Assembly (NCBI GenBank): GCA_947630765.1
Contig: CANRIX010000010.1
Location: 1-64,000 of the forward strand
Reading direction: 5' to 3'
Source of the DNA: an uncultured Clostridia bacterium
GTDB taxonomy: Bacteria > Bacillota > Clostridia > Oscillospirales > CAG-382
DNA length: 64,000 nt
Both the position numbers and the translations under genes were made by a program. This document shows, in pieces, positions 719 through 43,062 of the stretch. Position 1 is the first letter of the stretch; each line of letters opens with the position of its first letter. Below the pieces are notes generated by a model, which was not told where the DNA came from, searched no databases, and saw nothing but the letters and a program-made list of their open reading frames with translations.

Positions 719-1296
719 TGTCCAAAATAGCACTTTCCCACGGGCTACAGGGTGAGAGGACAAAAACCTCTCGCCCTGTTTTCCTTTGTGTGGCGAGAAC
801 GGGCGGCGCTCCTTGACAACCGAATAGCCATTCGCCAAATACTTCCTCTTTGTGATTGTGATGAGCATAAGCGTGTGCAGCGGTACGCCATGACCCGCCG
901 ACAAGCGGTAAGCGATGAAAGGTGGTGAGCGGAAAATACCGACTCAAAATATCGGGCGGCTCCCGATTTCGCCATAACCCACAAAGAGAACAATGGTACT
1001 CCCGTCCAGTCACAGTCCGAGCGTGATCAAACCGTCGCAGGCAATGAGGGCGGCTCTGTCAGAACGACAGGTGGGGTGAAACTCCCGTGGCGTCAGTTCG
1101 CTGCTGACCGTTTGGCGACTTCCCATCGCATTTCGGGGTGTCGAGGACAAATAGAAATGCGTCATCATAAGAGCCAAACGCAGGCGGTCAACAGAACAGA
1201 GCCATGTTTATGCGCTTCCGACCTTAAATACTCCCTGCGTTTGGCTTCTACATAGGCAGAAACCATCTGCCTAAACCAGATGGGAGGTCAAACACA
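719..1296 (+). other. Long non-coding, structured-looking stretch between terminator and mazF
   Basis: After the terminator at 748-782 about 510 bases hold no convincing gene; every frame is broken by stops except for fragments of 20-35 codons. Several hairpins are visible: CGAAT/ATTCG near 821-834, CTGTC/GACAG near 1055-1069 and AGGCAG/CTGCCT near 1254-1272. The motifs GACCG..GTTTGGC and GCCAAACGC..GGTC recur in opposite orientation. It could be a long leader RNA of mazF, a non-coding RNA of the element or an intron relic; I could not match it to a known RNA family. Confidence 0.4.
748..782 (+). terminator. Rho-independent terminator of the sigma-like gene
   Basis: A 12-bp stem (748-759 with 767-778, one G-U pair), a 7-base loop and TTTT follow the stop codon at 718. 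Confidence 0.85.
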
Positions 1297-1656
1297 ATGG
1301 AAAGAACAATCAAGCGTGGCGACATCTACTACGCCGATCTGAACCCTGTTATTGGCTCTGAACAGGGCGGCACAAGACCTGTGCTTATCATCTCAAACGA
1401 TACGGGCAACAGGTTTGCCCCGACGGTGATTATCGTACCGATCACGAGCCGAGTACACACAAAGGCAAAGCTCCCCACACATACGGTAGTGCAAAACTTT
1501 GAAGGACTGGAGAAGGAGTCTATTATTTTATCGGAGCAGATACGGACTGTTGACAAACAACGCCTGCGGGAGTATGTAGGAACTCTCGGCGGGCGTTTTC
1601 TTATTGAAGTGAACACCGCATTGGCAATCAGTATCGGACTGCCAAAAAAGGATTAG
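1297..1656 (+). CDS. MazF/PemK-family endoribonuclease toxin
   Basis: The 119-residue protein has the full MazF layout: an N-terminal IKRGDIYYADLNPVIGSEQ strand-loop, GGTRPVLIISND with the conserved Arg, VPITS with the catalytic-type Thr, and EQIRTVDKQRL. MazF toxins cut mRNA at short sequence motifs and are normally neutralised by a small MazE antitoxin encoded just upstream. Here no antitoxin gene is visible; the preceding ~580 bases are non-coding. The start is ATG 1297 behind GGGAGG. Length matches chromosomal MazF/NdoA. Inside a mobile element it could serve maintenance, or act as an orphan regulator controlled by an antitoxin elsewhere. Confidence 0.9.
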   Translation: MERTIKRGDIYYADLNPVIGSEQGGTRPVLIISNDTGNRFAPTVIIVPITSRVHTKAKLPTHTVVQNFEGLEKESIILSEQIRTVDKQRLREYVGTLGGRFLIEVNTALAISIGLPKKD

Positions 1657-1721
1657 CCCCCTCGTTATATGGGACAATCACAGGCTCATATACTTATTGA
1701 GAACGAGGGAGGTGTTGGCTA

Positions 1722-1928
1722 CTGAAGCATAGAGAATTTGTTTATGTAGGCGCTCCTGTTCCAGATTTGGATGGGCAGGAATACGCAGCGTTCCTTTTGA
1801 ATATTCAAAAGTCAATCCTCTTTTCTTTGGAACAGAGAAAACTATTGACCCCTTCACAGCGGGAACGCTGTTTGGTTGCGCTTGAAAATCAATACAGTCA
1901 AAAAGAGAGGAATAAGCGCCAAGCATAG
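1722..1928 (+). CDS. Small 68-residue protein of unknown function, probable CTG start
   Basis: An open frame runs from stop codon TGA 1698 to TAG 1926-1928 and lies 8-10 bases behind GGGAGG (1707-1712). The only start-like codon at the right distance is CTG 1722; there is no in-frame ATG, GTG or TTG near it. The product is amphipathic and charged, contains VYVGAPVPDLDGQEYAAFLLN, and has a Lys/Arg-rich C-terminus. It sits between mazF and the recombinase and its stop codon lies in the loop of a strong terminator, which supports a real gene. I do not recognise the family with certainty; it may be a recombination-directionality or regulatory accessory protein, but nothing in the sequence proves that. 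Confidence 0.6.
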   Translation: MKHREFVYVGAPVPDLDGQEYAAFLLNIQKSILFSLEQRKLLTPSQRERCLVALENQYSQKERNKRQA

Positions 1929-1943
1929 CCGCTTGGCGTTTTT
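1917..1943 (+). terminator. Rho-independent terminator
   Basis: An 8-bp GC-rich stem (1917-1924 with 1931-1938), a 6-base loop containing the stop codon of the small gene, and TTTTT. The recombinase therefore needs its own promoter, somewhere in 1944-2040. Confidence 0.9.
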
Positions 1944-2051
1944 ACATATAGAGAAATGTGCAAATTTGAAATTCGCACATTCGACAGAACCACCGCCCTT
2001 ATTTACAATAGAAATAACGGCAGCAGAGGTTGCTGGGAAAGGAGTATTGGA

Positions 2052-3950
2052 ATGAACAAATACGAACTCTTAAACCAAGAGCGCAAATTCGTTGATAAGA
2101 AAAAACGAGTTGCGGCTTATTGCCGAGTTTCAACCGATAACGAAGATCAAGCAAACTCTTTTGAAAGTCAGCAGCGGTATTTCCGGCAATATATCGAGCG
2201 CAATCCCGATTGGGAACTTTATGAGATATTTGCCGACGAGGGAATATCCGGCACGAACACCAAGAAGCGCAAAGAGTTTAACCGCATGATTGCCTGTGCT
2301 AAAAACGGGGATTTTGATTTGATTATCACAAAAGAGATCTCCCGCTTTGCCAGAAACACGCTCGACAGCATTTACTATACCCGTGACTTGAAAAAGCATG
2401 GTGTAGGTGTTATCTTTATGAATGACAACATCAACACGATGGACGGCGACGCAGAGCTGCGCCTTGCCATTATGTCCTCTATCGCACAGGAGGAAAGCCG
2501 AAAGACCTCGGAGCGTGTGAAGTGGGGGCAGAAACGCCAGATGGAACAAGGCGTCGTTTTCGGCAGGGATATGCTCGGTTACGATGTCCGTGGCGGCAAA
2601 ATGTATATCAATGAAGAAGGGGCAAAAATCGTCCGCCTTATCTTTCATAAGTTTGTTGTCGAGGGAAAAGGTACTCATGTTATCGCCCGTGAGCTTCGGG
2701 AGGAAGGCATTGAACCTATGCGGGTAAAGGAATGGCAGAACACGGTCATTCTCCGCATTATCCGCAACGAAAAATATTGCGGCGATCTGGTACAGAAAAA
2801 GACTTATACGCCGGACTTCCTATCCCATGAGAAAAAGTACAACCGTGGGCAGGAGGAATTCGTCATTATTAAAGATCACCATGAGCCAATCATTTCCCGT
2901 GAGCTGTTCGATGAAGCCAATCGGATTTTAGACGAACGCTCTTTATCGCCGGAGGGGAAGGCGAAACACTCAAACCGCTATCCGTTCTCTGGAAAAATCA
3001 AATGCGGGTGCTGCGGCGCAAGCTATGTGGCAAGGTATAAGACCCGCAAGGACGGAAGCCGATATAAGGCGTGGCGTTGTCTGGAGGCTGCTCGAAACGG
3101 CAGCCCGCATATAGATAAGGCGGGCAATCAAGTCGGTTGCACAGCCCCAAGTATCCGAAACGAGGACGCAACACATCTCATGTATCTCGTTACCAAAGAC
3201 TTAAAATTCAACCGACAGAAAATCACGGATAACCTGCTTTCCATTATCAAATCCATTATCGCTATGGATACCACAGGGTCGGATGTAGAAAAGCTGAAAG
3301 CGAAAATCAAAGCAATCGAGGAAAACCGAGCAAAGCTGATTGACCTCTATATGTCGAATGTCATAACCAAAGAGGAATTTGCGGACGCCAGAGCAAAGTA
3401 CGACAGTGAAATTGCCGAGCTGCAATCGGTCATCGACAGCATTGATAAACAGCAGTCCATGATAAAGCAGCAGCAGGAGCTTATCAGAGAGATCAGCGAT
3501 GCGATCAAAGAGATCGTCGGCGGCGTGGAATACGAAGATGAGTTTTACAAACGGATTTTGGATAAGATGGTCGTGAATGACCGTGACAATATAGATGTGT
3601 ACCTGCATTTACTTCCAATCAAGTGGAGCTATACGGTTGCAAAAGCGTCAAAAAAAGCGTTAGCCCCTAAAATGACGCATTTTAGGGGCTTCTCTACCGA
3701 TGTCGGTCAGCGTGCCGATCACCTGCTGGTTCGGCATGGAATACCGCTGGGAAAGGTACCGCATGGCGGCGCCCAACTCGCCGTCCGGCCCGCCGAACTG
3801 GGTGATGATCAGCTTGGCAAGCGCCGGATTCGGGTTCTTGATGTTGACCGGGTATTGCAGTTTCCTGTCATACGTCCACATGGCAGTTGCCTCCTTCCTG
3901 CTGTTGCCACGGCCACAGACCGCTTCCCCACGTCCAGCGGTCGCCGGTGA
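2052..3950 (+). CDS. Large serine recombinase (site-specific integrase) of the element
   Basis: The 632-residue protein has a resolvase domain (about residues 18-160; catalytic Ser27 in YCRVSTD, then DEGISGT and the ITKEISRFARN block), a Recombinase domain (about 175-290), a zinc ribbon (CGCC...C...C, about 317-360) and a coiled coil (about 410-500). This is the large serine integrase layout that joins attP and attB. ATG 2052 is preferred to the upstream in-frame ATG 1956 because AAAGGAG precedes it. It lies at the right end of the element, next to the junction. The reading frame does not stop inside the element: about 85 C-terminal residues after 3695 are antisense of host cotJB/cotJC. The original C-terminus is thus altered by the insertion; the catalytic parts are intact. 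Confidence 0.93.
   Translation: MNKYELLNQERKFVDKKKRVAAYCRVSTDNEDQANSFESQQRYFRQYIERNPDWELYEIFADEGISGTNTKKRKEFNRMIACAKNGDFDLIITKEISRFARNTLDSIYYTRDLKKHGVGVIFMNDNINTMDGDAELRLAIMSSIAQEESRKTSERVKWGQKRQMEQGVVFGRDMLGYDVRGGKMYINEEGAKIVRLIFHKFVVEGKGTHVIARELREEGIEPMRVKEWQNTVILRIIRNEKYCGDLVQKKTYTPDFLSHEKKYNRGQEEFVIIKDHHEPIISRELFDEANRILDERSLSPEGKAKHSNRYPFSGKIKCGCCGASYVARYKTRKDGSRYKAWRCLEAARNGSPHIDKAGNQVGCTAPSIRNEDATHLMYLVTKDLKFNRQKITDNLLSIIKSIIAMDTTGSDVEKLKAKIKAIEENRAKLIDLYMSNVITKEEFADARAKYDSEIAELQSVIDSIDKQQSMIKQQQELIREISDAIKEIVGGVEYEDEFYKRILDKMVVNDRDNIDVYLHLLPIKWSYTVAKASKKALAPKMTHFRGFSTDVGQRADHLLVRHGIPLGKVPHGGAQLAVRPAELGDDQLGKRRIRVLDVDRVLQFPVIRPHGSCLLPAVATATDRFPTSSGRR
3662..3690. repeat. 12-bp perfect inverted repeat at the element end
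   Basis: Bases 3662-3673 and 3679-3690 are exact reverse complements with a 5-base loop, immediately before the host junction. It may be a terminator-like structure or part of the recombinase binding site at the attachment end. Confidence 0.7.
3691..3704. other. Probable attachment junction (attR) inside cotJC
   Basis: Read on the reverse strand, codons for T-D-I-G of cotJC are followed directly by element sequence, where CotJC proteins normally continue T-E-E/L-A-H-L-E. The crossover therefore lies within or next to the Asp-Ile-Gly codons. The exact core cannot be fixed without the left end or an empty site. Confidence 0.65.
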
Positions 3951-11102: not shown

Positions 11103-11627
11103 TCACTTTGCGGTAGAACGCACGGTGCTGTGCAGTCCGGTCCGGCGGCGGAGACAGCCGGGGCCGAAAATTTCCAGCACGGCGCACATTTTGTCCGTCG
11201 CGCAGACCAGCACGCTTTCGCGGTACCGCGGCGGGCGGAGATTGAGCGGGAACATATGCTTGGCGATGACGTCCTTTTCCCGTGCAGTCAGCGCGAAATC
11301 CCGGCAGGCGTTCTCCAGCGCCCGTTTGGCGTGGTGGAATCCGTGCAGGCGGTGCGAGGGGTCGTCCTCGTGCCAATCGTACTGGAAATAGTCGTGCAGA
11401 AGCGCCCCGCGGATCAGCGCGACCCGATTCAGCGGGATGCGGAGCCGCCGCGCGAGGTACAGGCTGACGAACGCCACGTTGACGCAATGCTCGTAGACGC
11501 TCACGTCGCCGTGCTGGACGAACGCCCGCCCGATCAGCATTCCCTTTGCGCGCAGGATCTCCGCGCCGTGCCGCCGGATCTCCGCGCGAAGTTCCGCCGC
11601 CCTCGCCATACTCTTTGCGTTCGGCAT
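11103..11627 (-). CDS. HD-domain phosphohydrolase
   Basis: The 174-residue protein carries an HD domain: H in SVYEHCVNVA, the HD pair in GALLHDYFQYDW, a further H in KRALENAC/KHMFPLN and a late Asp in VCATDKMCAV. These are metal ligands of phosphohydrolases acting on nucleotides or phosphate esters. A loop with HEDDPSHRLHGFHHAK is typical of small clostridial HD proteins. The start ATG 11627 has AAAGGAGTTG. The substrate is unknown. Confidence 0.88.
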   Translation of the reverse strand: MPNAKSMARAAELRAEIRRHGAEILRAKGMLIGRAFVQHGDVSVYEHCVNVAFVSLYLARRLRIPLNRVALIRGALLHDYFQYDWHEDDPSHRLHGFHHAKRALENACRDFALTAREKDVIAKHMFPLNLRPPRYRESVLVCATDKMCAVLEIFGPGCLRRRTGLHSTVRSTAK

Positions 11628-11680
11628 AAGAACAACTCCTTTCTTAGATATATGCTTTCTGTTATATGGAAAACCTCACA

Positions 11681-12100
11681 TTAAAGTTCGTATCTCGTGC
11701 CGTGTGAAAGCAGTACGGCGTCTGTTAATTCCAGACGCAGAATAATCGTGTTTTCATCTGAAAAATCAGTATGGCCGTTGTCAATCCAACTGGAAAATGC
11801 CTTCTTCAATTTTTCAGCAAGGAGACAGTTCTTTTCCTCACAAAACCATCCCAAACTCTCTCCTTTTGCGTGCGCGGCAAACCAGTCGCCTGCAATTGCA
11901 ACCGTGGGGCTCGTTTGGATATGCCGCATTTTATTAGAGAGCGCATGTGTGATAATATAAAAGGAACCTTCCTCATAATACGCATTGACATACCGCACAT
12001 AGGGAACTCCGTTCTCCACAGTCGCTAAAGGAATACTAGTATCTTTGTCGTTGCCAAAGCGCTCCATCATGATTTCTTCAGCCTGCTTATTCCAATTCAT
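11681..12100 (-). CDS. Pyridoxamine 5'-phosphate oxidase-family (split-barrel flavin-binding) protein
   Basis: The 139-residue protein reads as a split barrel: LATVENGVPYVRYVNAYYEEGSFYIITHALSNKMRHIQTSPTVAIAGDWFAAHAKGESLG, the pattern of small PPOX/general stress flavoproteins. It starts at ATG 12100 after GAGGAG. It belongs to the AT-rich island and is probably a recent arrival. The flavin substrate reaction cannot be inferred. Confidence 0.85.
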   Translation of the reverse strand: MNWNKQAEEIMMERFGNDKDTSIPLATVENGVPYVRYVNAYYEEGSFYIITHALSNKMRHIQTSPTVAIAGDWFAAHAKGESLGWFCEEKNCLLAEKLKKAFSSWIDNGHTDFSDENTIILRLELTDAVLLSHGTRYEL

Positions 12101-12220
12101 AGGCTTTCTTCTCCTCTAAAACCCGAATTTATCGGATGGACATGGCTCCAACCCATAATAAACGATACCACAGAATCGGGAATGAATCTACTGTTGCCGC
12201 CCCGTCGTATACTTTACAAG

Positions 12221-12325
12221 AGGCGAACTTTGCAATTTTTCCTCTGCTCTGTAGTAAAGGTTGCAAGATCATGTCGATGTTCTTTGCGATTTTGATACAA
12301 AGCGTAAGTTCTTTTATTTGTGTAA
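12221..12325. repeat. Mosaic intergenic repeat A
   Basis: Its left half (GGCGAACTTTGCAATTTTTCC) recurs in repeat C and its right half (TTCTTTGCGATTTTGATACAAA) in repeat B. On the reverse strand it contains a relic of the 3' end of the P-loop gene (ACACAAATAA versus ATACAAATAA). Confidence 0.7.
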
Positions 12326-12331
12326 AAGAGT

Positions 12332-13069
12332 TTATTTCCCTATTTTTTCTAATAAATCCATCATTTCGCGCCACTCGTGGATATGTAGATGTTCACATTT
12401 GGGTGCGGATTTTTCGGAGCGGCCTTTGTACTCCCTATCCGTCTCATTATCGTACCAAACGGGATATATTCCGACTTGCGCCGCGCCCTCAACATCTGCT
12501 TGCGGATCATTTCCGCAGTACCATACCTCGTCGGCGTGCAGTCCGGCTTTCCGCAAAGCAATATCAAATAAAATGCGGTTGGGCTTCCGCACAATATAAT
12601 CACTGGAAGTCATAACAAATTCAAATGCATTCATCGGCAACAGTCTGTTCAGCCGCTCTGATAAAGCATCGCCCGACCATAACAGGTTACTGATCACCGC
12701 GCTTCTTATGCCATTTTGATTGATGAAATCAAGCATGATATCCGCTTCGGGCATCATGGCGCCCATAGAAGCGCCGTCCCAAAAAACCTTTTCCATTTCA
12801 AGCGGTGTCAGAGAAAATTCCATTCCGAGATACGCATATAACACTCGATCGCCGATCTGACCGCCAATATCGTACCCGATTTTACGGACATTTTCGATAT
12901 GCTCTCCGTAAATCAGTTCTGCCGCTTTTCTGACATCCTCCAACGTACAGTGATCGGGATTTTTTGTGGCATACTTCAAAAGTTCCGCAGTTCCTCTGAC
13001 AGAATCCCAACCGGGTTCATACAGAAGCGTATGCCCATAGTCGAATAGAATCATTTTGGGATACCGCAA
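12332..13069 (-). CDS. HAD-superfamily hydrolase (TTG start)
   Basis: The 245-residue protein has motif I FDYGHTLL (nucleophile Asp, with Gly in place of the usual second Asp), motif II SAVISN, a Lys at RKPN and motif IV-like GNDPQADVEGA. FDYGxTL is a frequent variant in this clade of HAD proteins of Clostridia. TTG 13069 is preferred: GAGG lies 8 bases upstream, whereas GTG 13078 overlaps the Shine-Dalgarno sequence. It is AT-rich and flanked by mosaic repeats A and B. Substrate unknown. Confidence 0.85.
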   Translation of the reverse strand: MRYPKMILFDYGHTLLYEPGWDSVRGTAELLKYATKNPDHCTLEDVRKAAELIYGEHIENVRKIGYDIGGQIGDRVLYAYLGMEFSLTPLEMEKVFWDGASMGAMMPEADIMLDFINQNGIRSAVISNLLWSGDALSERLNRLLPMNAFEFVMTSSDYIVRKPNRILFDIALRKAGLHADEVWYCGNDPQADVEGAAQVGIYPVWYDNETDREYKGRSEKSAPKCEHLHIHEWREMMDLLEKIGK

Positions 13070-13080
13070 GCAAATCACCT

Positions 13081-13166
13081 CAGTATACTTGCAAACTCTG
13101 CAAGATAATCATTATATCGTTGTTCTTTTCGATTTTGATACAAATAGATATTTTATTTGTATAATC
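13081..13166. repeat. Mosaic intergenic repeat B
   Basis: It shares TTCGATTTTGATACAAA and TTTATTTGT-TAA with repeat A and CTCTGCAAGA with repeat C. It includes a 9-bp inverted repeat (13138-13146 with 13154-13162) that overlaps the 3' end of the P-loop gene. Confidence 0.7.
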
Positions 13167-13815
13167 CAAAATGTTTTGCTATTGAATCACAAACTTCCTC
13201 TTTGGTATCTTCCCCATTATCTTCTCTGATGATCGTGAAAAAACCGCTGTCAACAAATTCGTCATAGTGCTTTTGGCTATTGATAAGGGCAAGTCCGCGC
13301 CGGTAGTTTTCCATAACGGCTTCGGGATCATCACAGGCTTTGATAACATCGAATAGAAATTGTTTTTCGGGGTCGTTCCGATCAAAAAAACGATCAACGC
13401 TCATGGCCTGCGGGCAGAGCATAACGGCAACACGGTTATAATCGGATATTTCTTTCAGGATATCAATCGGAATGTTCGTATCCACGATAACTTTCTGATC
13501 TCTTGCTATGGAAATAAGCTCCGCCACCTCAAATTCAGCGCCTTCTCTTCCCACGCTGAATATCCATCGCTCATATTCTTCCGGAGAGCGCGTCACAAAA
13601 TCTTTCCAATCGGTAAGATGATTGAGATAACAAATATCCGGCTGTAAATCCGGCGTTGCCACGATATTAGATACTGCACTGTGATAGTTTTCTCCGCAAA
13701 AGATCATGTCAAATTTGTCGGCAAGCATTTTTACCGTTGTTGACTTTCCGGCATAGGCTGTACCCGTAATAAAGTATACATTCTTCAGGTAGTGCTTAAG
13801 AATGTTATTTGCAAT
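13153..13815 (-). CDS. P-loop NTPase (AAA/kinase-like), no standard start codon
   Basis: The protein contains Walker A GTAYAGKSTT, then a Y/H-rich block (IFCGENYHSAVSNIV), DWKDFVTRSPEEYERWIFSVGREGAEFEVAELI, VIVDTNIPIDILKEISDYNRVAVML and SVDRFFDRNDPEKQFL. It resembles small nucleoside/shikimate kinase-like ATPases found in Clostridia. The first ATG (13728) lies after the Walker A motif, so translation must start upstream, but between the stop at 13825-13827 and there no ATG, GTG or TTG is in frame. ATT 13815 (or ACG 13821) lies at a workable distance from GGAGGTGAT. Either a rare start codon is used or the start was lost when repeat C was formed. Confidence 0.7.
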   Translation of the reverse strand: MANNILKHYLKNVYFITGTAYAGKSTTVKMLADKFDMIFCGENYHSAVSNIVATPDLQPDICYLNHLTDWKDFVTRSPEEYERWIFSVGREGAEFEVAELISIARDQKVIVDTNIPIDILKEISDYNRVAVMLCPQAMSVDRFFDRNDPEKQFLFDVIKACDDPEAVMENYRRGLALINSQKHYDEFVDSGFFTIIREDNGEDTKEEVCDSIAKHFGLYK

Positions 13816-13837
13816 ATTCGTTGTTTATCACCTCCGC

Positions 13838-13895
13838 AAAGGCGCACTTTGCAATTTTTCCTTGGCCTTGTATCAAACTCTGCAAGACGATACCA
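13838..13895. repeat. Mosaic intergenic repeat C
   Basis: GGCGCACTTTGCAATTTTTCC matches repeat A with one change and CTCTGCAAGA matches repeat B. It carries the GGAGGTGAT ribosome binding site of the P-loop gene. Confidence 0.7.
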
Positions 13896-14127: not shown

Positions 14128-14340
14128 ATGATGCCGCTGATATTCGCCACGGTCGGCGAGGAAATGATCATCAAAAAGGTGGGCGGGACCCCGGAGGTCA
14201 AGAAGCATCTGGAAACGCTCGGGTTCGTCGTCGGCGGGAGCGTGACCGTCATCAACACGATCGGCGGGAACGTGATCGTCAACGTCAAGGAGTCCCGCAT
14301 CGCGATCAGCGAGCAGATGGCCCGGAAAATCATGGTTTGA
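14128..14340 (+). CDS. FeoA-domain protein 1
   Basis: The 70-residue protein is a small SH3-like FeoA domain: IFATVGEEMIIKKVGGTPEVKKHLETLGFVVGGSVTVINTIGGNVIVNVKESRIAISEQMARKIMV. FeoA is a cytosolic partner of the iron(II) transporter FeoB. It is the first gene of the operon; CGGAG lies very close to ATG 14128, so the next codon (ATG 14131) may be the real start. Two tandem FeoA proteins before FeoB are common in Clostridia. Confidence 0.9.
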   Translation: MMPLIFATVGEEMIIKKVGGTPEVKKHLETLGFVVGGSVTVINTIGGNVIVNVKESRIAISEQMARKIMV

Positions 14341-14364
14341 AGAGATACAGGAGGGAAACGGCAG

Positions 14365-14586
14365 ATGAAAACGCTCAGAGAGGTTTCGATCGGGGAAACG
14401 GTCCGCGTCGTCCGGCTCCACGGAGAGGGCGCGGTGAAGCGCCGGATCATGGACATGGGCATCACGCGGGGCGTGGAGGTTCACGTTCGCAAGGTCGCGC
14501 CGCTGGGGGATCCGATCGAAGTGACCGTGCGGGGGTACGAATTGTCCCTGCGGAAGGCGGACGCGGAAATGATCGAGGTCGAATAA
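14365..14586 (+). CDS. FeoA-domain protein 2
   Basis: The 73-residue protein is a second FeoA: LREVSIGETVRVVRLHGEGAVKRRIMDMGITRGVEVHVRKVAPLGDPIEVTVRGYELSLRKADAEMIEVE. It keeps the RRRIMDMGI-type and PLGDP motifs better than the first copy and is thus the canonical FeoA. It follows FeoA1 by 24 bases with GGAGGG before ATG 14365. A GC-rich hairpin (14602-14620) and the second iron-box-like repeat separate it from feoB. Confidence 0.92.
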   Translation: MKTLREVSIGETVRVVRLHGEGAVKRRIMDMGITRGVEVHVRKVAPLGDPIEVTVRGYELSLRKADAEMIEVE

Positions 14587-14637
14587 GGCTCGGCAAAGGT
14601 TCCGGGACGGACTGTCCCGGCGATTTTCGGGCGGTCG

Positions 14638-14653
14638 GTTAGCAAACGCTAAC
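14638..14653 (+). promoter_or_regulatory. Iron-box-like inverted repeat 2, before feoB
   Basis: GTTAG-N6-CTAAC, the same half-sites and spacing as at 14077-14092, lies 32 bases before the feoB start and may mark an internal regulated promoter. Confidence 0.55.
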
Positions 14654-14684
14654 GACGCTGAAAACAGGAAAGAGAGGAAGGCAT

Positions 14685-17138
14685 ATGGAATTGCGAATCG
14701 CCCTCGCGGGCAACCCGAACTGCGGCAAAACGACGCTGTTCAACGCGCTGACCGGCTCGAACCAGTTCGTCGGCAACTGGCCGGGCGTAACGGTGGAAAA
14801 GAAGGAAGGCAAACTCAAAAAGCACGACGGCGTGACGGTCACGGACCTGCCGGGCATCTATTCGCTGTCGCCGTACACGCTCGAGGAGGTCGTCGCACGG
14901 AATTACCTCGTCGGCGAGCGGCCGGACGTGATCCTCAACATCATCGACGGCACGAACCTCGAGCGGAACCTGTACCTGACGACGCAGCTGACGGAGCTGG
15001 GGATCCCGGTCGTCATCGCGGTCAACATGATGGACGTCGTCGAAAAGAACGGCGACCGCATCGACACGGAGGAGCTGTCCCGTCAGCTCGGCTGCAAGGT
15101 CGTCTGCATCTCGGCGCTGAAGGGCACGGGGCTGACGGAAGCGGCGGAAGCCGCCATGCACGCGGCCGCGAACACGAAAACCGTCCCACACCACACGTTT
15201 TCCGGCGCCGTCGAGCACGCCATCGCGCATATCGAGGAGGCCGCCGTGCATACCATGCCGGAGGAGCAGCAGCGCTGGTACGCGATCAAGATCTTCGAGC
15301 GGGACGAAAAGGTGCTCGAACGGCTGCGCCTGCCGGAAGCCACGCTTTCGCACATCGAATCCGACATCAAGGCGGCGGAGGAGGAGCTCGACGACGACGC
15401 GGAAAGCATCATCACCAACGAGCGCTATATCTACATCGCGTCGGTCATCAAGGCGTGCTACCATAAGCGGAGCGCCGGCAGGCTGACGGTGTCGGACAAG
15501 ATCGACCGGGTCGTCACCAACCGCTTCGCGGCTCTGCCGATCTTCGCGGTCATCATGTTCCTTGTCTACTATATTTCCGTTTCGACGGTCGGTTCGTTCG
15601 CGACGGACTGGGCGAACGACGGGGTGTTCGGCGACGGCTGGCACCTGTTCGGGATCGGCTCCGGTGATTACGACGACGCGATGAACGCGTATGCGGAGGA
15701 GAACCTTTGGACCGACGAAATGCGGACGCTCGTGAATGCCGCCGTCGAAGCGGACGTCGTCGGCGCGGAGGATCTGCAGGGCGCGATCGAGGACGGCGAT
15801 TTCGCCGCGTTCGACGAGGCGTACGGCTCCTACGCGGACGCACTCGCGGAGGAAGGATTCGATCTTTCCGGCATCTACGACGCGGCGCTCGGCGAGGACG
15901 TCGAGGGCGTTCCCGCGCCGGAGGATTACCCGGTCTGGGTGCCGGGCATCCCGGTGCTGGTCGAGCGCGGTCTTGACGCGGCGGGCACGCCCGAATGGCT
16001 CAACAGCCTGCTTTTGGACGGCATCATCGGCGGCGTCGGCGCGGTGCTCGGCTTCGTGCCGCAGATGGTCGTGCTGTTCCTGTTCCTCGCGTTTTTGGAA
16101 TCCTGCGGGTATATGGCGCGGATCGCGTTCGTCATGGACCGCATCTTCCGGAAGTTCGGGCTGTCCGGCAAGTCCTTCATCCCGATGCTGATCGGCACCG
16201 GCTGCGGTGTGCCGGGAATCATGGCGTCGCGGACCATCGAAAACGAGCGGGACCGCCGCATGACCATCATGACGACGACGTTCATTCCGTGCGGCGCGAA
16301 ACTGCCGATCATCGCGCTCATCGCGTCGGCGCTGTTCGGCGGCGCGTGGTGGGTCGCGCCCTCGGCGTACTTCGTCGGTGCGGCGGCGATCATCGTTTCC
16401 GGCGTCATGCTCAAGAAGACGCGTCCGTTCTCCGGCGACCCGGCGCCGTTCGTCATGGAACTGCCCGCGTACCACTGGCCGACGGTCTCCAACCTGCTTC
16501 GGTCCATGTGGGAGCGCTGCTGGTCCTTCATCAAGAAGGCCGGGACCATCATCCTGCTTTCCTCGCTGGTCATTTGGGCGGGTTCGTCGTTCGGCGTGGT
16601 GGACGGCAGCTTCCTGTTTGACCCGGAAATGGAGCTGGAAAGCAGCATCCTCGGCATCGTCGGCGGTGCGATCTGCTGGATCTTTGCCCCGCTCGGCTTC
16701 GGGACCATCAAGGCGGCCATCGCGACGATCATGGGTCTGGTTGCGAAGGAGGAAGTCGTCGGCGTGTTCGGCGTGCTGGACTTCGAGGGGATGACGCAGC
16801 TTGCGGCATATTCCTTCCTCGTGTTCAACCTGCTCTGCGCGCCCTGCTTCGCCGCGATCGGCGCGATCCGCCGCGAGATGAACAGCGGAAAGTGGACGCT
16901 GTTCGCGATCGGGTACCAGTGCGTCTTTGCCTACGCGGTTTCGCTGATGATCTACAACTTCGGACTGCTGTTTACCGGCGGCATTTCTTCCGCGCCGCAG
17001 GTCGTCGCGCTGGTCGCTGCCCTGCTGGTGCTGGCGGGGATCCTGTTCCAGCTGTTCCGCCCGTACCGCGAAGCCACCCGTCTGACCGTCGGGGAAAAGT
17101 CCGCGTCGGCGGAAACCAACGAAACCACCAACGTATAG
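14685..17138 (+). CDS. feoB: Ferrous iron transport protein B
   Basis: The 817-residue protein has the N-terminal G domain (G1 GNPNCGKTT 9-17, G2 region NWPGVTVEKKEG, G3 DLPGIYSLSPY, G4 NMMD), a helical GDI-like domain and a polytopic C-terminal half with two Gate regions (GTGCGVPGIMASRT and the later LCAPCFAAIGAI). It takes up Fe2+ across the membrane. Between the first membrane helix and the next lies an acidic insertion of ~110 residues (about 310-425, rich in D/E and Y), which makes it longer than the usual 650-770. Start ATG 14685 follows AGAGAGGAAGG. Confidence 0.96.
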   Translation: MELRIALAGNPNCGKTTLFNALTGSNQFVGNWPGVTVEKKEGKLKKHDGVTVTDLPGIYSLSPYTLEEVVARNYLVGERPDVILNIIDGTNLERNLYLTTQLTELGIPVVIAVNMMDVVEKNGDRIDTEELSRQLGCKVVCISALKGTGLTEAAEAAMHAAANTKTVPHHTFSGAVEHAIAHIEEAAVHTMPEEQQRWYAIKIFERDEKVLERLRLPEATLSHIESDIKAAEEELDDDAESIITNERYIYIASVIKACYHKRSAGRLTVSDKIDRVVTNRFAALPIFAVIMFLVYYISVSTVGSFATDWANDGVFGDGWHLFGIGSGDYDDAMNAYAEENLWTDEMRTLVNAAVEADVVGAEDLQGAIEDGDFAAFDEAYGSYADALAEEGFDLSGIYDAALGEDVEGVPAPEDYPVWVPGIPVLVERGLDAAGTPEWLNSLLLDGIIGGVGAVLGFVPQMVVLFLFLAFLESCGYMARIAFVMDRIFRKFGLSGKSFIPMLIGTGCGVPGIMASRTIENERDRRMTIMTTTFIPCGAKLPIIALIASALFGGAWWVAPSAYFVGAAAIIVSGVMLKKTRPFSGDPAPFVMELPAYHWPTVSNLLRSMWERCWSFIKKAGTIILLSSLVIWAGSSFGVVDGSFLFDPEMELESSILGIVGGAICWIFAPLGFGTIKAAIATIMGLVAKEEVVGVFGVLDFEGMTQLAAYSFLVFNLLCAPCFAAIGAIRREMNSGKWTLFAIGYQCVFAYAVSLMIYNFGLLFTGGISSAPQVVALVAALLVLAGILFQLFRPYREATRLTVGEKSASAETNETTNV

Positions 17139-41907: not shown

Positions 41908-42110
41908 GCCCCAACCGAGAAAATATAGGGCTGTCTCTGTTTTTGGGGGCAAACAATTGCGTGCAAAAGCTGCTGCTTCGCAAAACAGCTGTTATTGATG
42001 CTCTATCCCTAAAGGCTCCACTACCTTTTCCCCATTTTCAAAAATATCTAACATTACAATTTTGTATTCATTGTGATATTTTCTTTTCTATTCAAAATAA
42101 TTTAGTAAAA

Positions 42111-42743
42111 TCAAATGTAAGACATATCGTTCAACTTGGATAATACGTGATTCCCGGCTGAATCTTCGTATAACATTGACACACCTGCTGTTTTGCCGGA
42201 TATATTAAATTTATCAAGCAAGTTCAAATCAATTCCTAACCATAAAGCAAAAAAAATACGTAATGTTCCATCATGAGATACGATGATTAGGTTATTCTCT
42301 GATGGATCTATAATTTGATTATAAAAAATAGAAACTCTACGCCAGACATCCTCTCTTGACTCTGCACCGTTAAAAACTTTTCCATCCTTTGTTGTTGCCC
42401 AATCTAACATGTCAGGCCATCGAGGACACTTCGCATTATTTCTTGCCCATTCTTTTGTCTTTCCAATAGCTTCACCTAAATGAAACTCTCTCAATAATGC
42501 GCTGTAAATCGGTTCTATTTTCAAATAACCTGATATAATCTCGGCAGTATGCTTGGTTCTCTGCAAATCCGAGGCATACAAAACATACGTTTCGTCTTGT
42601 ATTTCCATACGAAGTTTTTGACCAATACGATTGGCATGTTCAATACCAAGATCAGTGAGATCCCAGTTTCCCCATGACCCAATCATGCCATTGATATGTT
42701 GCTCGGATTGCGGATGTTGTATTGTAATTATTTTTTTTGACAT
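42111..42743 (-). CDS. Histidine phosphatase-superfamily protein
   Basis: The 210-residue protein has the catalytic block IITIQHPQSEQH (Gln in place of the usual Arg before the catalytic His), DLTDLGIEHANRIGQKL, YASDLQRTKHTAEIISGYL and IIVSHDGTLRIFFALWLG. This is the phosphoglycerate mutase-like (histidine phosphatase) fold with its second His intact. It is strikingly AT-rich, with no neighbour in an operon, and lies next to repeat copy 3; horizontal transfer is likely. The substrate is unknown. Confidence 0.85.
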   Translation of the reverse strand: MSKKIITIQHPQSEQHINGMIGSWGNWDLTDLGIEHANRIGQKLRMEIQDETYVLYASDLQRTKHTAEIISGYLKIEPIYSALLREFHLGEAIGKTKEWARNNAKCPRWPDMLDWATTKDGKVFNGAESREDVWRRVSIFYNQIIDPSENNLIIVSHDGTLRIFFALWLGIDLNLLDKFNISGKTAGVSMLYEDSAGNHVLSKLNDMSYI

Positions 42744-42869
42744 AAATACGACCATTCCGTTCTTCTACAATGCAGTACACAGCAAGTGTGTATCATGTAG
42801 CATTCAAAATAGTATTCAAAATGACCCCGAGAAATCGGATAATAAATAGCAATATACCACATATAAAGT
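42744..42869. other. AT-rich intergenic stretch before the phosphatase gene
   Basis: It contains the ribosome binding region of the phosphatase gene and AT-rich sequence; no clear promoter, hairpin or gene was seen. Confidence 0.5.
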
Positions 42870-43062
42870 ATAAATGCATTCGCCATTCAAAACGGCGAAC
42901 CGTTTTGAATGGCGAATGCCCCCTTTCGGGACGTGCCGACGACGTCTGCACGTTTGAAAACCGGCTGCGTCAGCGCCACTTCTGACGCCGCCTTCGCCGC
43001 TTTTCTCTTAAGGTGTTCCGCAGACGGCACATGTCCGTCTGCGGAACAGTATTCCTATTTGT
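42870..43062 (+). repeat. Dispersed intergenic repeat, copy 3
   Basis: It shares the core GAAAACCGGCT..CGCCACTTCTGACGCCGCCTTCGCCG and CTTTTCTCTTAAGG with copies 1 and 2. It has a perfect 20-bp hairpin with loop CGAA (42875-42894, 42899-42918) and a 14-bp hairpin (43013-43026, 43034-43047). The second hairpin differs in sequence from its counterparts but keeps full pairing. Confidence 0.8.

Follow-up and report, generated by a model that had tools for sequence, protein, structure and literature searches.

Putative single-gene cassettes of gut Clostridia with ends in common with phages that carry tandem large serine recombinases

Integrons are the best-known setting of mobile single-gene cassettes; they rely on a tyrosine recombinase, and their attC sites carry the consensus boxes R'' and R' (RYYYAAC and GTTRRRY). 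The staphylococcal cassette chromosome (SCC) has a single chromosomal gene as its insertion point and brings many genes with it, and for the transposons Tn5397 and Tn4451 we know of no cassettes or arrays. Elements resembling miniature inverted-repeat transposable elements (MITE-like elements) have the ends of an autonomous element without its recombinase, as do the cassettes described below, and phage satellites of the PICI or PLE type bring their own integrase and packaging or hijack genes. Here we describe an AT-rich island in a stretch of 64,000 nt (the window) from contig CANRIX010000010.1 of genome G000, an uncultured Clostridia bacterium, in which three genes, read on the minus strand, are separated by repeats A, B and C. 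The island has the cassette architecture of integrons combined with a putative serine-integrase attachment site common to gut phages. It is likely that its units are non-autonomous cassettes with phage attachment (att) ends, which would have been moved in trans by paired serine integrases and later reshuffled by homologous recombination. This suggests that phage integrases may move single bacterial genes in an integron-like manner.

The units have in common with integron cassettes, and with integron-type arrays that lack an integrase (CALIN), small genes in the same orientation, a site at each junction, a diversity of small enzymes and the gain and loss of whole cassettes. Unlike them, they are bounded by a 52-bp quasi-palindrome with a central GA and the box TTTGATACAA, show no attC core and are accompanied by no IntI above the cut-off; half-sites stand at the array edges and the ends are common with phages. 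The phages with tandem large serine recombinases (LSRs), including 'Ca. Heliusvirales' NatCom_11578, have the same half-sites, the same leader and a central GA, with the LSR pair near one end, but the three phage records are 48-65 kb long whereas a cassette has one main gene and no recombinase. In contrast to MITE-like elements, each unit has a cargo gene and the units form head-to-tail arrays. Phage-satellite genes were not found in the units, of which the longest open reading frames (ORFs) were searched; nor were phage structural genes, these ORFs coding for enzymes or proteins of unknown function and only the ends being common with 'Ca. Heliusvirales'. SCC also employs two LSRs, CcrA and CcrB, for which recombination between like sites is reported (PMC3783163); here, however, small units stand in arrays at many loci. 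Tn5397 and Tn4451 have Clostridia LSRs (TndX and TnpX), with a central GA in the TndX target according to PMC4430133, but they are autonomous transposons. The nearest kind would be non-autonomous elements moved by an LSR, among which single cargo genes and arrays appear to be new.

The initial annotation had seen three AT-rich genes separated by repeats that share halves, and this description holds. The G+C content is 0.43 in the island and 0.65 and 0.63 in its flanks, and a repeat search of the window pairs A with C (12221-12268 and 13840-13887, 79% identity) and A with B (12268-12301 and 13111-13144, 88% identity). When scored with a half-site matrix derived from 20 sites in other genomes, the left halves (L-halves) of A and B reach 37.0 and 27.1 bits and the right half (R-half) of C reaches 36.9 bits; the next best scores in the 64-kb window are 10.9 and 6.3 bits, and the maxima in 300 dinucleotide shuffles of the 2.5-kb island are 10.1 (L) and 4.3 (R) bits. 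Control loci comprising 561,588 bases yielded three matches of at least 20 bits, two of which belong to a real cassette in L137 and mark its ends, whereas a 42-bp relative of the site in L166 accounts for the third. Repeat A consists of an L-half, a degenerate R-half and a leader, repeat B of an L-half and a broken R-half without leader, and repeat C of an R-half and a leader, part of which is common to A and C. The three repeats are degraded versions of a single 52-bp quasi-palindrome, TTGTATCAAA-N32-TTTGATACAA. The match behind the further proposal that the 3' end of the P-loop gene lies within repeat A is weak (15 of 19 bases, a score equalled by 10 of 2000 shuffles).

All three genes recur elsewhere, at about 88-93% nucleotide identity, beside intact half-sites, in other gene orders and in distant gut Clostridia. 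The HAD gene is found at 89% identity in cassettes of L078, L079 and L126 and at 87% in L157. The P-loop gene is 93% identical in L084 (genome G095, of another family), 91% in L137 and 90.5% in L205, in each case between half-sites, while its site-less homologs reach at most 74%; the PNPOx gene has a copy of 88% identity in L101 (5127-5545) between an R-half and a full site. In the alignment with G095, homology of the P-loop cassette stops at or near the sites on both sides and the context is unrelated. The P-loop protein is 94% identical to that of a genome of another family, as against 75-78% in the four congeners that have a homolog; arginyl-tRNA synthetase is of little use as a reference for comparing G000 with other families, as only parts of the protein align, at 25-37%. 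Among 23 other genomes of the genus, a strong HAD homolog (E below 1e-40) is present in one, a PNPOx homolog in none and a P-loop homolog in four. Other arrays have the orders GNAT-HAD-GNAT (L078) and PNPOx-GNAT (L101), or hold the P-loop gene (L137). All three window genes are, by these copies, predicted separate cassettes. Conserved gene order with the same repeats, which would have pointed to ordinary vertical descent, was not found.

Each unit is built head-to-tail of an R-half, a leader, a gene and an L-half. The 33 units that we extracted, non-identical in sequence and in several cases sharing one gene, come from loci chosen for having sites and are no census. They measure 0.6-2.0 kb and have one main ORF, the longest ORF being in the sense orientation in 32; a few of 1.1-2.0 kb may contain additional genes or run across a site that has been lost. 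According to Pfam, 20 further cassette proteins comprise seven GNAT acetyltransferases, three methyltransferases, two NUDIX proteins, one each of HIT, APH, a helix-turn-helix (HTH) protein with a GyrI-like domain, a weak AAA match and an antisense Fic, and three proteins without a match. PADLOC matched the antisense Fic in L128 and AbiH in L154, and gave no match for the window genes. In L132 the same GNAT cassette occurs twice (154-618 and 1702-2166) with another cassette between; the unit bodies are identical in 611 of 612 bases (99.8%) and the ends are slightly less alike.

On the gene strand of G373 the intact site, a 52-bp quasi-palindrome, reads TTGTATCAAAATCGCAAAGAACATAG/ATATAATCTTGCAGAGTTTGATACAA. 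Each arm has the 10-bp outer box TTTGATACAA, preceded by a variable base and located at about positions 16-25 from the site centre, and the two boxes flank the central GA. Of 394 genomes of the order, 8 have full sites according to the outer-box pattern TTGTATCAAA-N20..50-TTTGATACAA, the reversed pattern giving none among the matches listed. A wider scan covered a genome collection (at least 120 stretches) and a viral collection (26 stretches); among the matches listed, site length peaks at 52 bp, with at least 76 sites against 0-5 at each other length. The centre is GA/TC in 34 and CA/TG in 32 of the 76 distinct 52-bp sites among these matches, which are not 76 independent cases because many are related. 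This is the form of a serine-recombinase att site: about 50 bp (here 52), two arms, a 2-bp core (GA or CA in 66 of 76) and a distal box. At either edge of an array, the junction with host DNA falls at the site centre, and the sites of L078 follow in the order R, full, full, L. A looser scan that included the inner motif matched 27 of 394 genomes, versus 8 for the reversed pattern, and since only 12 of 30 of its loci have a half-site of at least 14 bits, many of the matches must be due to chance or decay. An exact 18-base pattern found 8 matches in the viral scan, and site plus leader found none among plasmids.

A shorter version of the site, 42 bp long and lacking 10 bp inside, is present at 7993-8034 of L081 (G149) and 8384-8425 of L082 (G089), both of one genus. 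Other 52-bp subfamilies, with the same outer boxes and different inner sequence, recur within one locus in L125, L190, L097, L112, L156 and L182. Arrays in L125 and L190 were observed outside Clostridia, and similar arrays may exist there, for example in Acholeplasmatales. Direct repeats of about 10-12 bp (GGGGTGCAAA, GGGTGCGTAA and similar, found by eye) adjoin the site in the LSR loci L092, L186, L221, L208 and L184. Their likeness is to the TTGCGGTGTAA repeats within the leader of the cassettes, and an accessory protein may bind to them. A terminator with ATTTTGATACAAAGCG beside a tRNA-like sequence (by eye) in G000:C30 had an E value of 0.56 and was taken as chance.

The same half-sites are present in phages. 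Site plus leader, used as a query, retrieved three GenBank phages labelled 'Ca. Heliusvirales', and the leader pattern retrieved three IMG/VR contigs. Half-site, leader and LSR gene occur together in six of eight loci selected by leader, half-site or LSR (L154, L321, L325, L326, L327 and L329); the LSR of L321 is cut by the contig end, and L154 and L326 count as one element because their LSR2 are 99.8% identical. In L154 a full site is followed by the leader, an AbiH gene and two LSR genes, the products of which have Resolvase, Recombinase and zinc-ribbon domains. Tandem LSRs are also found near 52-bp sites of several subfamilies, and beside the window-type half-site and leader they are the sole recombinase genes observed; the link between the repeats and a recombinase that had been sought from the outset is thereby provided by phages and prophages. 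NatCom_11578 has an R-half with leader at one end and an L-half of 35.9 bits at the other, with host flank beyond. Its ends, when joined, form a 52-bp site with core GA that scores 58.8 of 91.8 bits, and its host flanks, when joined, are open in at least one frame. The 5' ends of all 33 cassettes match a phage end, over at least 50 nt in 24 of them, and the 3' ends of four match the left end of L154 over at least 40 nt. Cassette ends are, on this comparison, predicted attachment-site ends of phages, and L-half and R-half joined form a 52-bp attP-like site. The genes that follow the leader in the three phages encode HTH proteins, zinc ribbons and unknown proteins, and no cassette-type enzyme.

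In L325, around 11728, the phage-end R-half directly follows an apparent type I restriction methylase gene (by eye). The window itself has an LSR gene (1956-3950), which we rejected as the mover: it is a single LSR of another element, and none of the LSR loci of G000 is among the best matches to the tandem pairs. Together with a pemK RNA (Rfam) and a PemK-like ORF (by eye), it makes up an unrelated mobile element at the left end of the window (990-3950).

Whole cassettes are gained, lost and swapped at loci. G304 and G357 belong to one genus. Their sequences do not differ up to and including a GNAT cassette with its L-half, after which G357 has one extra unit of about 630 bp ahead of the same host gene, encoding a Cys-rich protein of 124 amino acids without a Pfam match; the comparison concerns that stretch only, and the G357 contig ends nearby. 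At the window locus, the relatives G001, G014 and G022 have arginyl-tRNA synthetases 99%, 98% and 87% identical to that of G000. The P-loop, HAD and PNPOx genes of the window are replaced by an APH-like cassette in G001 and G014 and by nothing in G022, where 10 kb at the locus contain no half-site of at least 8 bits; the HD-domain gene next to the alternative or empty site is 96, 94 and 72% identical in protein sequence in the three genomes. G001 matches the window at 96.8% up to position 13834 (a 2168-column match) and again from about 11663. Its intervening cassette, with a shortened ORF, encodes a protein resembling (by eye) the APH-family protein of L100 and has an R-half of 30.0 bits and, at the 3' edge, an L-half of 22.5 bits. 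In the cassette of G014 the R-half scores 29.8 bits, and ahead of it a remnant of a left half is visible by eye only. Both this comparison of related genomes and the cassettes found elsewhere support the initial proposal that gene ends are places of insertion or recombination, with an effect like that of cassette exchange.

All features of the window array lie on the minus strand. Its upstream edge is the core of repeat C, with the R-half GGTATCGTCTTGCAGAGTTTGATACAA (13868..13894, 36.9 bits), and the rest of repeat C is the leader of the first cassette (GGCCAAGGAAAAATTGCAAAGTGCGCCTTTGCGG, 13834..13867), which is common to other cassettes and phage ends. The P-loop NTPase-like gene of cassette 1 (13153..13821, 222 codons and a stop) starts, at 13819-13821, with ACG where its relatives, compared by eye, have ATG or GTG; this is a sign of decay or an unusual start. 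The cassette ends with the L-half of repeat B (TTGTATCAAAATCGAAAAGAACAACGA, 13117..13143, 27.1 bits). The degenerate R-half of the HAD cassette (13091..13116), recognized by alignment and intact in L078, has lost its outer box and leader and has six extra bases. It precedes the HAD-family hydrolase gene of cassette 2 (12332..13078, 248 amino acids; Pfam HAD_2, 9.7e-10), which ends with the L-half of repeat A (TTGTATCAAAATCGCAAAGAACATCGA, 12274..12300, 37.0 bits). Repeat A can be read as a full 52-bp site (12249..12300) with three mismatches, all in the right outer box, followed by the leader of the PNPOx cassette (12217..12248), to which the leader before the L101 PNPOx cassette is similar. 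The PNPOx-like gene of cassette 3 (11681..12100, 139 amino acids; Pfam PNPOx_N, 3.7e-07) also belongs to the island, which therefore extends further than initially drawn. The decayed 3' edge of the array lies approximately at 11655..11680; the L-half is lost here, at the place where G001 has its L-half and where one is visible by eye only in G014. The host anchors are the HD-domain gene (11103..11627, minus strand; Pfam HD, 1.7e-07) and, on the plus strand, FeoA/FeoB-like genes, ORFs named by eye without a family search (14128..17138) and part of the 2168-column match to G001. The PPOX and HAD identities first given to two of the genes agree with Pfam, and that of the third with a by-eye Walker A motif, Pfam giving no match. 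The array is probably decaying and now immobile, since G000 is without an LSR of this type and the sites are damaged (B and the 3' edge have lost boxes, and A has the three mismatches in one box). A second AT-rich stretch is present at 42001-43000 of the window, with a G+C content of 0.38 compared to 0.60 overall.

The enzymology of cassette movement we infer by analogy with described LSRs. The recombinase would bind each arm of the site, the outer box serving as the motif of its zinc-ribbon domain (ZD); the ZD motif of the LI integrase is placed at positions 16-24 in PMC3783163. Cassettes would circularize at the full site, and the circle would integrate either at a GA-centred target, so that a half-site remains at each edge of the array, or at a resident full site in an attP x attP reaction. 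Recombination of this latter kind is described for the A118 integrase and CcrA/CcrB in the same paper, a GA core is reported for TndX targets (PMC4430133), and LSRs with many targets are known (PMC10083194). The LSR pair would be supplied in trans by a resident or visiting phage, because G000 has no such LSR. The repeated leaders would then allow RecA-type recombination, through which genes are deleted, duplicated or exchanged. The breakpoints away from the GA would most simply be put down to homologous recombination between the repeated ends (window/G001, G357/G229 and L132). Thus the exchange initially proposed may in part, as between the window and G001, resemble homologous recombination rather than site-specific exchange.

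A number of observations weigh against movement by paired phage integrases. No circle or excision was observed, and G000 has no L154-type LSR at E <= 1e-120; G304 and G357 have LSR fragments only (38.8 and 23.5 bits). LSR homologs are present at 11 of 74 loci with 52-bp sites and at 3 of 72 with sites of other lengths. A half-site of the window subfamily is absent from the six LSR regions sampled in array-bearing genomes (L263-L268), and among seven regions found with the L154 LSR (L317-L323) only L321 has one. L317 (G175), without a half-site, has an LSR 93% identical to that of L154 over 333 residues, in a broken frame; LSRs without half-sites are mostly well below 70% identical to those of L154. 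L324 has an LSR pair and the leader motif and no half-site of 12 bits, and in L328 LSR genes fall outside the stretch examined. The other two phage records show no L-half in their first 6 kb, nine of the 33 cassette 5' ends match a phage over less than 50 nt, little beyond the half-site by which they were selected, and the phage collection, searched at E 1e-10, contains no relatives of the window's HAD and P-loop proteins. The window/G001 breakpoint is at the leader end (13834) and not at the GA; therefore the first leader stayed and the gene changed. Likewise, the Cys-rich-protein units of G357 and G229 have a common 3' body and different inner L-halves.

Some of these facts would also be expected if the units were left over from prophage ends that carried cargo genes and had been rearranged solely by RecA-dependent recombination between the repeated half-sites and leaders, no integrase having moved single cassettes. 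Leaders are repeated in most arrays, the break between the window and G001 is at the leader end, the L132 GNAT units are nearly identical in body and less alike at the ends, 4 of 33 cassettes keep at least 40 nt of the L154 left end, and a half-site is present in 1 of 13 LSR regions of the genome set. Such shuffling does not account for a P-loop cassette in an unrelated context of another family, with homology stopping near the half-sites, or for array/host junctions at the site centre, and a half-site of 27 bp offers little length for integration into unrelated DNA by homology. We consider it unlikely that RecA acted alone. A different view, that of a vertically inherited operon with dispersed terminators or repeats similar to repetitive extragenic palindromes, would explain why all three genes are on one strand, but the empty and alternative sites of the congeners already speak against it, gene order is not conserved, and the P-loop protein is closer to that of another family than to those of congeners; it retains almost no probability.

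It is also conceivable that the cassettes are mobile through another recombinase, be it another LSR, an IS607-type serine recombinase or a tyrosine recombinase, given that these genomes have several recombinase families and G000 lacks an L154-type LSR at the above threshold. The chance of this is slight: tandem LSRs are the only recombinase genes seen beside half-site and leader, and one phage has both halves at its ends. A CALIN, in which the repeats would be attC sites recombined by IntI, shares with the island one gene orientation, an imperfect palindrome after each gene and GNAT, NUDIX, kinase and methyltransferase cargo. However, the RYYYAAC/GTTRRRY boxes are absent from the sites, site length is nearly constant at 52 bp, and half-sites stand at both array edges. 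IntI (TIGR02249) exceeds its 265-bit cut-off in none of 11 array genomes, weaker tyrosine-recombinase matches being present in all 11 of them and in all 14 control genomes. Folding of the decayed repeats of the window is no stronger than that of shuffled sequences (z -0.2 to -1.1), and the breakpoints are not at an R' core: junctions fall at the site centre, some inner ones at the leader end or L-half. On the core box, IntI and breakpoints we rejected an integron/attC identity, to which we assign a very small probability. The likeness to cassettes proposed initially thus stands for exchange, with the correction that the ends are predicted phage attachment ends and not integron attC sites.

Preferring paired phage integrases acting in trans, we can offer a broader reading only tentatively, as one a little short of evenly balanced: serine integrases would have arrived at an integron-equivalent gene capture, with a platform supplied by a lineage of gut phages with paired LSRs and single bacterial genes with phage ends as circulating cassettes. 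These would use GA- or CA-centred sites for insertion, accumulate in arrays and pass from one bacterial family to another. No description of such cassettes was found in the accessible open-licence literature, preprints and subscription papers being outside this scope. The phage group is described as widespread in PMC9226167, the main text of which, as far as accessible, has 'integrase', 'recombinase' and 'attachment' 0 times and 'cassette' once. Provided that the cassettes are moved by phage enzymes, the paired integrases could be tested as tools for assembling arrays of genes. If the broader reading is true, sister versions that differ in their inner sequences, as in Acholeplasmatales, would extend it to a general system of Firmicutes and their relatives. 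And if phage enzymes are indeed the movers, phages would be engines that shuffle single metabolic and modifying enzymes among gut Clostridia.

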